A stretch of 64,000 bases of DNA from Tetradesmus obliquus (taxonomy: Eukaryota > Chlorophyta > Chlorophyceae > Sphaeropleales > Scenedesmaceae). The notes below the pieces were generated by a model. It searched no databases and was not told where the DNA came from. It was given only the letters and a program-made list of their open reading frames with translations. The stretch covers positions 372,001 to 436,000 of the forward strand of contig CP126201.1 in the NCBI GenBank assembly GCA_030272155.1, given 5' to 3'. The position numbers and the translations under genes are program-made. Below, one piece after another: positions 4,201-61,736 of the stretch. Every line of letters begins with the position of its first letter. The first letter of the stretch is position 1.

Positions 4201-4536
4201 TGCTGGAGCTTCTTGCTGAAATATACTGTGAGAGATGATTAGCACCATACCCCACTGCCAATGATGCAATACTTGACAATCTGTACACGTTAACTGTTTG
4301 CTGCCATTGCCAAACACATCCACTAATGCACCCAAAAGAGCTCAGCCCATTGCTCACTTGTCAACAGCCTCATAGCTCTCACTGCTAACAGCTCACAATA
4401 AAGCACGTACATGGGTATCCCCATCGTCACACACATCCCCTTCCTTAACACACCAGGCGTAGCTCATTCATGCATTCAGCGGGTGTTAAAGGTTTACACA
4501 CCACGCGTAGCTCATTCATTCAGCTCGTATGTCAGC
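1222..4536. other. Intergenic stretch, no supportable gene
   Basis: Only short open frames without splice support or domain signal are seen on either strand. Two imperfect 25-30 bp direct repeats near 4455-4485 and 4498-4528 share 'cgtagctcattcat' and lie just past the 3' end of the SGNH hydrolase gene. A minus-strand TGTAA at 4498-4494 is about 40 nt beyond that gene's stop codon and is a plausible poly(A) signal. Two similar blocks around 3655-3705 and 4010-4045 share 'caattgcccgcac' and a following 'actgtagca'. Confidence 0.5.
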
Positions 4537-7500
4537 TTAGTCCATTGCTGATTCGTCAACTGCCGTGTAACTCTCAGCAGCTGCCATATCAGCATCAGCT
4601 GGCACCTCAATGCCGCCAACAGCCTGTGACAGCTCCTGTGCTGCTGCCTTGGGCCCAACGCTGGAGCGCCAGCTGTCTTCGTGCTTGCTGAAGAAGGAGT
4701 TGTCACGGTCGATGGCCAGATAGTCAATTCCTGTGAGCTTGTTGGAACTTGTGAGGGGGATGACTGCGACGCCGTTCACCTGGAGCAGAAACATGAAGCA
4801 CAGAACATTGGTTCAGCAGAGCAGCATAAGGAGGGAGCAGCGCAGCGCAGCCATTTGTAAGGGAAACTGGCTGCAGCAGCTTGTGCTTGATCATCACACA
4901 TCATGGGCAGGATGCAGCAGGCTCACCCAGGCTGTAGCTACCTGCATGGTATAACCATCTTGCTTGTTCAGGCCTGGGTGGCGGGCTGTTGCTGTGCAGT
5001 GTCAAGCAACCACGATCACTCTATGGCACTTGACAGGAGTCCAATGCGCTGCCAATCAACCTCACCTTTGTGTGTCAATCTCACCCTCCTCGACCTTTGT
5101 GTGTCGATCTCATGTATCAGATTCAACAATTTGGTGTCAAAGTTACAGCCCACTGCCCCTCAATTGATCAACCTCAGCTCACCTTGAAGTAGTTGTTGCC
5201 ATCGGGCCCCTTATCCATGATTGTCAGCCGCACCGTGCACTGCACGCTGCGCGTCACCTGCACATAGCACATAGCACATAGCACACAGCACATAGCACAT
5301 AGCACATAGCACATAGCACATAGCCCACAGCACATAGCACATAGCACATAGCACATAGCACATAGCACATAGCACATAGCACACGGCAGTGAATGCGGCA
5401 TGAAGCGTGGTGAGCAGCCGTCGCCCATCTGTAGTAGCAAGTGATCAAAAGAATACAATCAACGCTGCTGCTAGCCGAAACCGGTGCTGCGGCGTGTGCC
5501 AGGACAGCAGCGGTGATGCTGGCGCCATGCAGCCAGCAGTACAGCAGGCAGGCACTGCTTGATTTGCTGCAGTGCAGCGGTTTCGCAACTGCCCCATTTC
5601 CAGGGTGCTGTTCTCTGTGACACTGTCCCACGCTTGCTAAATGAGCTGAAGCTCTGGCGCTGCTGCCAACGGCATGCACTCCATGTCAGTGCTGCACCGC
5701 TGACACATCTATTGCTGCGCAGCATGCCATGCCATGGCGCAAGTGGCTGCCTGGTAGTCGCCTGGCGCCTGCAGCAGCAGCACCTTCCTTACTATCCAAC
5801 TCACCTCCGCGGTGCCGAAGGCGGTCTCTGAAGAATAGTACTGACCCCCGCCAAGCTCAAAGGCACTGCACCGGCAGCCCCGCACACACTGCACCCAGGC
5901 AGCAGGCGGCAGGTAGCTGTTACCCACCCTGAAGCCCTTAGCAGCATTGCGGTCAAAAAACAGCATCAGCTGCCGGCGCGTCATGTAGCTGCTGGCCTTG
6001 GGAATGTTCTCCGTGTTCAATGTAAACTCCAAGGTTTTGCCGACGCCGAATGTTGAGTAGCCAAACTTGTCGCAGTTCACCCTGCGGCCGAAGCGCTGCC
6101 GTTTTGCCGAGCACTCCTTGGCCACAACTGAGCTGTCCCGCCACTCCCACCCGCCGGCCTTCACGCTCGCCGGCGTCGCCAGATCCTTGAAATCGATTCC
6201 CTCCGCACAAAACGTGCCGGCAGGGGCCCCGTTGATATCTTGCTGCTCGAAGGCCTTCGGACTGACTGGCCGGGCCGGAAGCGGGGTCGGGCCGGAGACC
6301 CGCCCGCCTGCTGCAAGTGCGGTAAGCTCTGATGAAAGTGCTCGGCGGATGCCGAAAGCCAGGATGCCCTGCCCCAATATGAAGTGTCCTTTTGCATTGG
6401 GGTGCTGGTCGTCCGCCATGATCTGGGCCTTGGTGAAACCCTGGCATGTGACCAGCAGAAGCAGAGCAGCAGCAGCAGCAGCTGTCGGTGACATGGTATT
6501 TGCTTCTAGCACAGGCAGCAGATCCAGCACGAACAAATGTACCCAGTGCTGCATTTAGCCATCACGACTCTCACCTGTGCATCTATACGGCTGCTGCTGC
6601 TGCTTACCAGGCAACTTGCATGCATGCACACACACCAAATTAGACGTCACGTCACGTCACGTCACGCCACGCCACGTCACGTCACGTCACGCCACGCCAC
6701 GTCACGTCACGCCACGCCACGTCACGTCACGTCACGCCACGTCACGTCACGTCACGTCACGTCACGTCACGTCACGTCATGTCACGTCACGTCATGTCAC
6801 GTCACGTCACGTCACGTCTAGTACAGTACTAGATGTGTGCACAATTGAATCTACACACGCACCAGCTCCGCCTGCATGGCAGTCTGGTTGTACATGTAGT
6901 CGTAGAACACGTCCCGCACTGACACCATGGGCAGCCTGTAGCGGCGAGCAAGAGCGGCATGCATGTCGCCACCTGCAGCACACGGCAGCACGCCAAAAAA
7001 ACTCAATGGTTATCAGCCGGTTGTAAGGGGGCGTGCCAGTGAGTTGTGCGCCAAGTTGTACAGCCGCCGCCACAATGCTGTTGGTGAAAGGAGCTGGGAT
7101 GCAGGGACTCGCAACTGTGTATGGTGTGCAGCAGGCTGTCGTAGAGCAGCGGGGAGCGAGAAAAACGCATCAGGTGGGATGCTGTTTTGCACCTGCAGAT
7201 GCATGTGTCGCCTTAGTTGCTATTGACTGCTTTTTCTCGGCAAAACACACACAGAATGGCGGCTGGCCATTCGTGCTCGTGCAGCGTCGGCATATTATGA
7301 GGACCGGCTGCAGTTGCACTAGATGCTTTGTGCAGCGATTCCAATCAACAATCTCCTCTGAACAAAAAAGGACAATGGCTGGAGGATGACTGGCTGCTGT
7401 GAAGGCTAAGGAAGAACATGCGCCCTGCTATGCTGACGCATCACTATACCTGTCTGGTAGTAGGGTAGCGGCAGTGTAGGATTTGTTGGAGTACCGGTGC

Positions 7501-60900: not shown

Positions 60901-61736
60901 GCTGTTGCAGCTGCACAGGGACAACGCTCAGAGCTCAGCACCCACCGAAGTGCCAGGACGTAGCCCTTGTCAGCCGTGCCTGCTGTGTGGCTCAACAATC
61001 TCTGCCATGCAGCTACTCACATCTTCACTGCAATCACTTGGCGCGTTTGCCTGCCGCTCTTCAACTGCTGCAGCTGCTGCCTGGTGGTGACCGGGCCCGC
61101 TACGAGCTGCTGGCAGACCTAGGGGAGCTGCTGCTGGCGGGTGACACAGCAGGTGCGTGCAGCTGCTGGGCTGTTTGCACCGCATCTGGCGCGCATGTGT
61201 TGGTTTACTGCTGTTTGCGGGTGACCCTGCAGGTGTGCGCGGCTGCTGTGCGCTGCACGGCGCTTGTCAGCGACTTCAGTGTGCATGGTAGCTAGTGCAT
61301 GTGTGGATGCTTGCTGCTGCAAACCATCCATACATAACTCCCGCCTGCGGCAGGCAGCAGGTGGGCAGTTGCATGCTCTGTATAATGCATCTCAACTGCA
61401 GTTGATGACGGTTGCAACGGGTGGCATACAAGCATGCAATATTGGAGCTGCAGGGGTGCCATTACAATAGTATTGCTTGTCACAATTTTCTTCCATGCAA
61501 CACCCTTTGCAGAGCCATGCACAACAGCAGCAGCATCAGCGGCTGGCGACGTCGAGGAGCAGCCGCTGCTGGTGCTTGCACAGGACGCTGCTGCTGCTGC
61601 AGAGGCCTTCACGGAGGCTGCAGAGGAGGCTGCGGCTGCCTTCAAGGGCAAGCTGTCGCAGCGCTACTTTGAGCGCGCAGCCGCGGCTGAGGCGGCAGCA
61701 GAATGCAGCGAGGGTGCTGCAGAAGGAGATGCCTGA
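51979..61736 (+). CDS. EEF2K: Eukaryotic elongation factor 2 kinase (alpha-kinase)
   Basis: Phosphorylates EF2 and slows translation elongation; Ca2+/calmodulin-activated in animals. Seventeen exons: 51979-52092, 52400-52695, 53441-53557, 54465-54502, 54804-54900, 55235-55322, 55690-55746, 56065-56174, 56673-56871, 57784-57892, 58424-58521, 58798-58953, 59242-59429, 59670-59842, 60377-60759, 61074-61152, 61513-61736. All phases agree: 841 residues. Residues ~138-155 (RWHRAVAHVLSNAAPDPW) match the calmodulin-binding segment. The alpha-kinase domain spans ~189-441: FAAGAMRECYAMKKL, NFVAKRY (Lys232), IEGDYVKYNSNSGY, DIQGVGDLYTDPQIHT (Asp379, Asp389), GDGN, and a zinc site THECNALC (His417, Cys419, Cys423, with His365). 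The C-terminal third has SEL1-like repeats (MALRYTQLAAERG; KGKLSQRYFERA). N-terminal ~135 residues are Ala/Ser-rich. A TGTAA lies at 62002. About 20 echoes sit in its introns. Confidence 0.93.
53120..53400 (+). repeat. Three-unit echo array of eEF2K exon 3 start
   Basis: Units near 53122, 53248 and 53349 copy the exon 3 start with acceptor (true start 53441), sharing 'cagcaccagccgcagccgct' and 'gagcaaacact' from the intron. Spacing is about 90-125 bp. The farthest unit is the most diverged. They lie upstream of the true exon. Confidence 0.93.
53640..54057 (+). repeat. Four-unit echo array of eEF2K exon 3 end
   Basis: Units near 53643, 53760, 53882 and 54013 copy the exon 3 end with donor (true end 53557), sharing 'tgcccatggaggtggtcaca'. 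Spacing is about 117-131 bp and each includes 'gcaatgagcctgcggcctgc' or a variant and TTTG-rich intron text. Three of four retain CACAG|GTG(C/G)GG. Confidence 0.94.
55621..55680 (+). repeat. Intronic CTG run at 3' splice site of eEF2K exon 7
   Basis: About 20 CTG units end nine bases before the acceptor TCGCAG|ATGGAT at 55690. A similar run at about 55988-56048 precedes exon 8 and another at 58362-58411 precedes exon 11. Confidence 0.95.
56430..56470 (+). repeat. Exon echo: eEF2K exon 8 end
   Basis: Copies the exon 8 end (to 56174), sharing 'tacaacagcagcagg' and 'gcgaccatgtcaaa' against true 'gagactacgtcaag', with donor GTGCGG. Confidence 0.85.
57105..57387 (+). repeat. Two echoes of eEF2K exon 9 end
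   Basis: 57107-57168 and 57336-57385 copy the exon 9 end (to 56871), sharing 'cttcagccacttcacctttg' and the donor GTGCGGCA. Spacing is about 230 bp and the units also share 'gaggcaactgaggaca'-type intron text. Confidence 0.94.
57563..57722 (+). repeat. Two echoes of eEF2K exon 10 start
   Basis: 57567-57606 and 57677-57722 copy the exon 10 start with acceptor GCAG (true start 57784), sharing 'gcgcactgtgtgttgacatc' in the first. Spacing is 107 bp. Both keep the frame of the DIQG motif (LCVDIQGMG, LCVDVQGVG) for about 15 codons. Confidence 0.94.
58038..58072 (+). repeat. Exon echo: eEF2K exon 10 end
   Basis: Copies the last ~30 bp of exon 10 (to 57892), sharing 'ggcgacggcaacctg' and 'cgctgcgcggtg'. 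Confidence 0.85.
59010..59078 (+). repeat. Exon echo: eEF2K exon 12 end
   Basis: Copies the exon 12 end (to 58953), sharing 'ggagcagcagaaggcac' and 'caggcgcagctgctggcaca', with donor GTGGTGCGG. Confidence 0.93.
59995..60105 (+). repeat. Exon echo with stop: eEF2K exon 14 end
   Basis: Copies about 85 bp of exon 14 (59750-59842), sharing 'catggcgctgcgctacacgc'. One change turns GGCTAC into GCCTAA, giving an in-frame stop; the donor is degraded. Another small echo, of the exon 14 start, lies at 59572-59602. Echoes of exon 15 and exon 16 ends are at about 60835-60861 and 61207-61236. Confidence 0.92.

Follow-up and report, generated by a model that had tools for sequence, protein, structure and literature searches.

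Tandem copies of exon edges with their splice sites in introns of Tetradesmus obliquus

Introduction

Why would an intron hold copies of the edge of the exon beside it? The question is raised by a stretch of 64,000 bp from the green alga Tetradesmus obliquus, of the family Scenedesmaceae in the order Sphaeropleales (C11:372001-436000, hereafter the window; the genome comprises 104.66 Mb in 17 contigs), for which a preliminary description, made from the sequence alone, had reported that introns hold copies of the neighbouring exon edge together with its splice site. These copies, which we call echoes, are real: they are tandem copies of an exon edge including its splice site, in direct orientation and beside the original. 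About half of the introns in the genes that we examined carry such worn copies, a pattern far from chance, and the copying seems to make introns longer and to provide strong spare splice sites. Intron growth and the origin of alternative splice sites are old questions for which few events can be traced; here 111 copies offer an age gradient, a layout and splice signals.

Results

Echoes in adjacent introns

We surveyed 293 kb of DNA in total, comprising the window, regularly placed loci, two paralogue loci and four added loci; the regular sample was 18 evenly placed loci of 10 kb, among them an all-N locus (L016), which was excluded. When the masked window was compared with itself, 84 direct repeat pairs less than 1 kb apart were found, and the three inverted pairs were all more than 10 kb apart. 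The regular loci contained 295 direct pairs less than 1.5 kb apart and no inverted pair, while one dinucleotide shuffle per regular locus gave neither direct nor inverted pairs. Over the whole 293 kb the numbers were 543 direct versus 2 inverted pairs.

We then compared each 60-bp exon edge of ten modelled genes (four in the window and six elsewhere, with 92 introns) with its own intron, simple repeats being masked, and took a score of at least 40 as an echo. Two of the 184 edges were excluded because the exon piece was shorter than 25 bp. A strong echo was found in the adjacent intron at 57 of the 182 edges tested, while the reverse complement (0/182), the intron on the exon's other side (0/164) and the best of ten shuffles (0/182) gave none; at a looser threshold of 30, the corresponding numbers were 63 edges versus 2, 0 and 3. 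Donor edges (31/90) and acceptor edges (26/92) were alike. Echoes were present in all ten genes and in 43 of the 92 introns, and the four window genes taken separately showed them at 25 of 86 edges and in 20 of 44 introns. Both checks, the self-comparison and the alignment of introns with their flanking exons, thus bear out the copying of edges and splice sites that had been described, with direct repeats and with echoes far above the shuffles. The rule that copies of 3' exon ends lie downstream and those of 5' ends upstream also holds (no far-side match in 164), although it is nearly automatic for tandem copies of one edge.

An iterative search starting from the 57 edges raised the number to 111 echoes in the ten genes. 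At this score the STT3 gene of the window holds 20 and the eEF2K gene 13, so that their presence stands while the numbers are lower than the about 25 and about 20 first counted; the esterase and GH16-like genes, for which echoes had likewise been reported, contain 2 and 5. The statement that echoes fill most introns goes too far, as fewer than half of the introns carry one and 13,291 of the 43,544 intron bp fall in local repeats. Introns with echoes are longer than those without (median 533 versus 314 bp, p=5.6e-8), partly since each echo adds length.

It should be considered that the frequency of echoes is possibly overestimated, because the modelled genes outside the window come mostly from repeat-rich loci. 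Among the modelled regular loci, L028, L029 and L024 contain 50, 23 and 19 local repeat pairs and are repeat-rich, and L015 contains 4, while repeat-poor loci such as L018 (2 pairs) and L032 (1 pair) yielded no model. The echo frequency of the ten-gene sample may therefore be too high for the whole genome, and the genome-wide pattern first proposed is seen in the window and in this small sample.

Layout of the copied unit

The layout was determined from 106 of the 111 echoes, the five that end more than 8 bp from the junction being omitted. Successive copies have a median spacing of 127 bp. Family spacing is mostly 89-175 bp with a second group at 208-285 bp, and the offset spectrum of local repeats peaks at 110-150 bp and rises again at 220-290 bp; the unit length of about 90-270 bp given earlier is refined into these two groups. 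The exon part of the unit has a family median of 48.5 bp (30-70 bp in 45 of 56 families and at least 80 bp in 3), and its implied intron part is about 73-75 bp. Donor and acceptor families share this layout, with 50 versus 47.5 bp of exon and a spacing of 124 versus 123 bp. Uniform breakpoints predict an exon part of at least 75 bp in about 30% of families, and it was observed in 1 of the 48 families with a spacing below 180 bp (Kolmogorov-Smirnov p=2.8e-6). There is a preferred layout of -48/+75 around the junction, and uniformly placed breakpoints are rejected. A unit of 101 bp in the KIN17 gene recurs together with its intron part, and one hisG edge was found in ten copies.

Preference for coding edges

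Inside the ten genes, 62 of the 63 repeat clusters include an exon edge, though introns make up 43,544 of the 60,458 bp, and just one cluster lies wholly within an intron. A minisatellite without relation to genes is ruled out for the echo arrays by this count. By arithmetic, a unit of 127 bp has at least 31,860 placements wholly within introns versus about 16,000 that cross one edge with 20 bp to either side of it; if introns measured 314 bp before duplication, the two kinds of placement become about equal.

Exon interiors, probed at least 100 bp from an edge, gave no echo in 55 cases, and coding starts gave none in six, of which the first exon of the esterase gene is too short to reach the threshold. 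Past the stop codon, serial copies of the coding end were found in two of six genes. The proteasome gene has two, with 52 and 26 bp of coding sequence, and the GH16-like gene has four of 35-45 bp; all six are followed by a stop codon, and successive distances are 108-222 bp. The KIN17 coding end has one weak copy (score 39) without a stop. Since coding ends, which have no splice site, carry similar copies (six genes), duplication at the DNA level is favoured over copying delimited by the spliceosome. Similarly, tolerance fits better than splicing, because such arrays follow two of six stop codons while exon interiors show none.

Ageing of the copies

The copies are 75-100% alike. Mismatches between exon and echo affect 90/1724, 64/1732 and 291/1721 of the first, second and third codon positions (5.2, 3.7 and 16.9%). 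In families with at least two echoes, changes specific to the exon number 1, 1 and 19 by codon position and those specific to echoes 39, 36 and 60. Of the 27 indels in echoes overall, 26 disrupt the reading frame. The exon copy has thus remained coding, and the echoes change almost without constraint, showing at most a weak excess at third positions, part of which may come from echoes born at different times. A strong coding constraint on the echoes themselves, which the third-position mismatches had suggested, is weakened by these echo-specific counts and frame-breaking indels.

For the intron part, local alignment against a cross-gene null took the place of an anchored prefix alignment, which had been too coarse. 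The intron flank is homologous in 40 of 109 echoes, with an identity of 0.83 versus 0.92 for the exon part, or about twice the divergence, as would be expected if two copies are free to change in the intron part and one in the exon part. Intron sequence, said to be contained in the units, is recognisable in 24 of 55 families and in 3 of the 29 families with a single echo, so that this claim stands for part of the families.

Splice signals and isoforms

Among echoes aligned to within 3 bp of the junction, GT is kept in 55 of 58 donors and AG in 37 of 39 acceptors. At donors, identity reaches background level over the first 25 bp or so of intron, and at acceptors a level slightly above background; at donor positions +4 and +6 (0.70 and 0.62) it is well above the cross-gene level. 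Echo donors score 2.29, compared with 2.25 for real donors and -2.84 for random GT. The 32 of 56 echo donors that differ from the real donor at +3..+6 still score 1.91, versus -0.99 under random change, a value that none of 5000 simulations reached. The pyrimidine-rich tracts of echo acceptors persist at a sequence identity of about 0.4, and their position weight matrix score at -5..-15 is 1.25 (36 echoes), compared with 1.70 for real acceptors and -1.98 for random AG. The matrices were built from real sites of the same genes, and some changes may lie on the lineage of the real site; the survival of the echo signals is suggestive of selection but not conclusive, and much of the motif would be expected to survive anyway at the low change rate of the echoes.

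The offsets of near donor echoes are evenly spread over the frame (8/9/8, n=25), and the use of echo donors would often be unproductive because 16 of the 25 near extensions run into a stop. Cassette or mutually exclusive exons were considered and rejected, since the best partner site at the outer end of an echo is no better than random intron.

Deposited annotations suggest that some hisG echo sites have been adopted in T. obliquus isoforms. The HisG protein P0121 has an extra exon of 84 nt that ends exactly at an echo donor; an extra exon of 15 nt beginning at an echo acceptor is present in P0124 and in P0125, which belongs to the present assembly; and the alternative 3' exons of P0121 and P0124 begin at echo acceptors. 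By comparison, P0126 and P0127 (T. obliquus) and P0123, which comes from contigs of at most 1,648 bp and is perhaps derived from transcripts, are without the 28-residue insertion and the repeated IPGVE. The KIN17 protein P0145 has extra segments in the echo region, and the alignment does not put them at the listed echo junctions. The proposed supply of spare splice sites is consistent with these results, as echo sites score like real ones and are used in annotated HisG isoforms. It also matters for annotation, since deposited HisG proteins of T. obliquus already mix in echo exons.

Gene models and sampling

The ten genes were modelled by spliced protein-to-DNA alignment, on which all models rest. 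The guide proteins were named T. obliquus proteins or very near ones, and homologues in the case of both STT3 genes. 'Esterase' and 'GH16-like' are the names of the preliminary description; the other names come from Pfam entries or from the names of matches. Some models are partial: STT3 is without its C-terminal end, KIN17 and the proteasome gene are without the N-terminus, and the 5'-nucleotidase ends at residue 511 of 599. Esterase exon 1 and GH16-like intron 4 have doubtful edges. Two outside loci (L013 and L014) were chosen as carriers of paralogues of window genes; the other four outside genes are from regular loci with a recognisable conserved gene and an available guide protein, a choice that was not random. 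For pyruvate dehydrogenase E1 (L032) and the SGNH gene of the window, no guide protein was found among the 120 matches listed, and hence no model was made. When ten open frames of the window were scanned against Pfam, a single match came up, and it fell below its cut-off. A codon-usage segment finder was used solely to choose query fragments.

Other features of the surveyed DNA

The genes and echoes of the window are collected in Table 1. In the unmodelled C-terminal part of STT3 (11168-12040) there are more short direct repeats, which are probably further echoes. In the intron between GH16-like exons 8 and 9, about 101 bp next to two echoes (40762-40862) form a perfect (TGA)n microsatellite. 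CTG/CAG microsatellites are frequent before the acceptor AG (L028:3716-4110 and many acceptor regions), and their length varies between echoes of one edge. Three seemingly young contiguous duplications (in L020, in L024 and in L014 beyond KIN17) turned out to be ordinary minisatellites and were not used as evidence.

Long arrays of 7-bp (GCACATA) and 5-bp (ACGTC) units occur at 5260-5383 and 6644-6818, in the region of the SGNH gene named earlier. Open segments at 21791-22114 (-) and 63209-63484 (+) encode similar stretches (EAIFSQRVLAAA...), and it seems that a member of one gene family lies at each end of the window, on opposite strands. Outside the window, the open frames of L026:500-3157 (+) resemble what we take to be a Gypsy-type retrotransposon, with a reverse transcriptase and an integrase-like translation, and a 117-bp tandem array lies downstream of them (L026:4380-4936).

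Table 1. Genes, echoes and related repeats; positions are those of the window unless a locus is named
Feature	Position	Strand	Details
STT3 gene (oligosaccharyltransferase catalytic subunit)	12001-20567	-	13 exons modelled, C-terminal end left out; Pfam STT3 matches and spliced alignment to P0001; 20 echoes in 7 of 12 introns
Esterase gene	29853-34202	+	protein-guided model
GH16-like gene	36451-41745	+	protein-guided model; stop codon 41746-41748
eEF2K gene	51979-61733	+	alpha-kinase domain; model guided by P0247
Genes outside the window	L013, L028, L029, L014, L015, L024		second STT3, hisG, proteasome alpha subunit, KIN17, UTP6 and 5'-nucleotidase, respectively
Echo of STT3 exon 5 (18894-19106), 3' edge	18634-18687	-	score 100; offset 254 bp; GT
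Echo of STT3 exon 6 (17994-18192), 5' edge	18425-18478	-	score 71; offset 280 bp; AG
Four serial echoes of STT3 exon 6, 3' edge (span 17042-17813)	17760-17813, 17512-17565, 17287-17340, 17042-17095	-	scores 92, 94, 91, 38; all GT; second with intron identity 0.98
Echo of STT3 exon 7 (16495-16731), 5' edge	16821-16874	-	score 93; offset 137 bp
Echo of STT3 exon 8, 3' edge	15909-15962	-	score 48; offset 114 bp
Two echoes of STT3 exon 9, 5' edge	15599-15652, 15727-15780	-	scores 91, 51
Echo of STT3 exon 10, 5' edge	15028-15081	-	score 44; AG lost at extrapolated position
Two echoes of STT3 exon 10, 3' edge	14546-14599, 14422-14475	-	scores 71, 79
Five serial echoes of STT3 exon 11, 3' edge	14005-14058, 13906-13959, 13802-13855, 13703-13756, 13607-13660	-	scores 68, 71, 70, 40, 62; Tandem Repeats Finder (TRF) reports a 99/195-bp array
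Echo of STT3 exon 12 (12854-13076), 5' edge	13142-13195	-	score 90; offset 113 bp
Echo of STT3 exon 13 (12001-12132), 5' edge	12207-12260	-	score 76; offset 122 bp
Echo of esterase exon 4 (31145-31338), 3' edge	31499-31552	+	score 54
Echo of esterase exon 5 (31997-32122), 3' edge	32202-32255	+	score 74
Echo of GH16-like exon 5 (38282-38461), 3' edge	38521-38574	+	score 61
Two echoes of GH16-like exon 7, 5' edge	39308-39361, 39444-39497	+	scores 94, 54
Two echoes of GH16-like exon 8, 3' edge	40605-40658, 40721-40774	+	scores 110, 43; second stops short of junction
Four copies of GH16-like coding end, downstream of stop (span 41812-42317)	about 41812-41856, 41966-42010, 42080-42118, 42283-42317	+	scores 55, 50, 63, 40; TGA after each; array also in self-comparison
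Two echoes of eEF2K exon 3 (53441-53557), 5' edge	53243-53296, 53346-53399	+	scores 54, 43
Three echoes of eEF2K exon 3, 3' edge	53640-53693, 53759-53812, 53877-53930	+	scores 77, 70, 71
Eight further eEF2K echoes	56412-56465, 57110-57163, 57329-57382, 57564-57617, 58020-58073, 59019-59072, 59565-59618, 60052-60105	+	scores 41, 78, 54, 48, 45, 87, 44, 78
Ordinary minisatellites	L020:7854-8058, L024:1290-1452, L014:7708-7936		near-identical short units, unlike echo arrays

Discussion

Based on these observations, we suggest that the echoes are probably what is left of short tandem duplications that occurred repeatedly across the boundary between coding and non-coding sequence. A unit of about 127 bp, made up of the splice site with about 48 bp of exon edge on one side and about 75 bp of intron on the other, would be duplicated head to tail. 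Whichever copy remained joined to the rest of the exon would stay in use, and the other would turn into intron. More rounds at one edge would give arrays such as that of hisG and a longer intron, and the intron half of the unit would decay quickly while the exon half and the splice signal last longer. The initiating lesion may be a staggered break that is filled in before end joining, edges may be favoured as sites of duplication, and the exon half may last by exchange with the live exon, by weak selection on splice sites, or by both. The direct-only copies, their spacing, the side rule, the layout, the longer echo introns, the arrays past stop codons and the surviving splice signals support duplication across the edge.

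Several observations weigh against simple decay of such duplications. First, simulated decay at the rate of the echo itself would leave the intron flank recognisable in nearly all families, not in the 24 of 55 in which it is seen. Second, in 20 of 22 families, pairs of echoes resemble each other more closely in the exon part than in the intron part. Third, 29 repeat pairs across all loci reach at least 96% identity; 17 of them span less than 85% of their offset, in some cases at 100% identity, and several of the 12 that do cover it are minisatellites or other long arrays. Finally, the surveyed loci yielded no recent event whose breakpoints were clean on both sides. Something must be added to simple decay: the live exon may exchange sequence with its echoes, the exon part may be retained, or copying may leave out the intron.

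A further-reaching version, to which we give somewhat less than an even chance, is that the duplication process is aimed at coding edges, with a fixed window of about 48 bp inwards and 75 bp outwards that is the same at donors and acceptors and extends to some stop codons. Such a process might be a main engine of intron growth, and strong copied sites might outlast the turnover of the intron, leaving about half of the introns stocked with usable spare sites. If edges are truly favoured, this would be an unrecognised mutational bias tied to exon boundaries.

The strongest alternative, which we regard as rather unlikely, is survivorship without any preference for edges: tandem duplications of 100-150 bp would fall at random in non-coding DNA; those confined to an intron would soon fade, and those spanning an edge would stay visible because the live exon holds their exon half. 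The faster decay of intron parts and the strong third-position bias of exon-echo mismatches, as one-sided constraint predicts, agree with it. On the other hand, planted intron-only duplications (with 15 introns as background) were recovered in 56-60 of 60 runs at up to 10% change per lineage, and yet 62 of 63 clusters are linked to exons. Old intron-only events may be lost to detection, because the intron seems to decay faster than the simulated 10%; the fair comparison is that of the 24 families with a homologous intron flank versus the single intron-only cluster, and it also speaks against survivorship, as does the non-random layout. The preliminary description had explained the copies by tandem duplication tolerated where one intact junction survives. 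Duplication beside an intact copy is retained here, whereas tolerance as the sole cause is not, as it leaves the scarcity of intron-only clusters (1/63), the -48/+75 layout and the often missing or unrecognisable intron half unexplained.

It is improbable that the echoes are kept by selection as functional splice sites, such as decoys, poison extensions or regulated alternative sites. Echo donors that score like real ones even when changed, acceptors that retain their tract at low identity and annotated HisG isoforms that match echo sites exactly would be expected in that case. However, nearly all indels in echoes break the frame, the offsets show no frame preference, most near extensions meet a stop, no partner site exists at the outer end and similar arrays follow stop codons; in addition, the matrices were derived from these very genes, and some of the changes may belong to the lineage of the real site.

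Copying with the splice site as its limit, as might happen through spliced or partly spliced RNA or through repair that uses such RNA as a template, is more doubtful still. Homology ends within a few bases of the splice site in most single-echo families, as this would predict, but some units clearly contain intron (among them the 101-bp unit of KIN17), the copies past stop codons look alike without a splice site, and the identity at +4 and +6 indicates that the copy runs beyond the donor.

We see hardly any room for an artefact, be it chance, simple repeats or assembly errors, or for ordinary minisatellites: CAG/CTG repeats abound in the region and true minisatellites occur in L014, L020 and L024, but simple repeats were masked, the controls gave no match at threshold 40, the copies are mostly too diverged to be collapsed or duplicated reads, and proteins from other T. 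obliquus records also carry hisG echo exons. The introner reading, in which a mobile insertion duplicates the exon edge as its target site, was rejected as the least credible of all: the interposed segments are about 74 bp long, as an insertion might be, but the 106 segments gave no match between families and one had matches in another surveyed locus, and a target duplication of 48 bp ending at an exon edge would be unusual.

Comparison with known systems

Duplication across coding edges, the reading preferred here, has relatives in the literature, which we compare on the basis of parts of the cited papers. No description of the echo pattern in any green alga was found in the open-licence literature. 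Fill-in at staggered breaks gives small tandem duplications in mammalian cells (PMC8355091). These resemble the echoes in being small and independent of sequence, but they were made at Cas9 breaks, with overhangs of about 50 bp tested, and have no link to exon edges. Introners, for which green algae are named among the carrier lineages (PMC9860276), likewise change intron content on a large scale; they are dispersed families with shared sequence, whereas echo sites share nothing, and Tetradesmus and Scenedesmus are not mentioned in the main text of that paper.

Two reports touch on the alga itself. The mean intron length of T. obliquus is 462 bp, above that of four other green algae in one table (PMC5966456). 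In the PCS gene of Scenedesmus acutus, treated as a synonym of S. obliquus, transcripts with retained introns were described, and a residue could be encoded by exon 5 or intron 4 (PMC12899622); this ambiguity may reflect another echo.

Tandem duplication is an established source of introns (PMC3443670, PMC2891723). As in the intron gains described in Drosophila (PMC2891723), spare splice sites arise beside a live one; there, however, the duplication affects an exonic segment and the intron arises anew, while in T. obliquus the intron pre-exists and grows. The Drosophila authors noted that their own cases lack supporting sequence conservation, possibly owing to age, in contrast to the 75-100% likeness of the copies seen here. 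The nearest published case that we found is the RdRp gene of potato, in which a tandem duplication across an intron-exon boundary made one new intron in one event (Ma, Lan and Niu 2016, PMC4974935). It too crosses the boundary and carries splicing signals, but it is a single event, whereas the 111 echoes in ten genes are serial, lie on both sides of exons, continue past two stop codons and have mostly not made new introns. T. obliquus differs from the published cases in how densely the copies occur, in their serial arrays flanking exons on either side, in their layout, in reaching some stop codons and in splice signals that persist.

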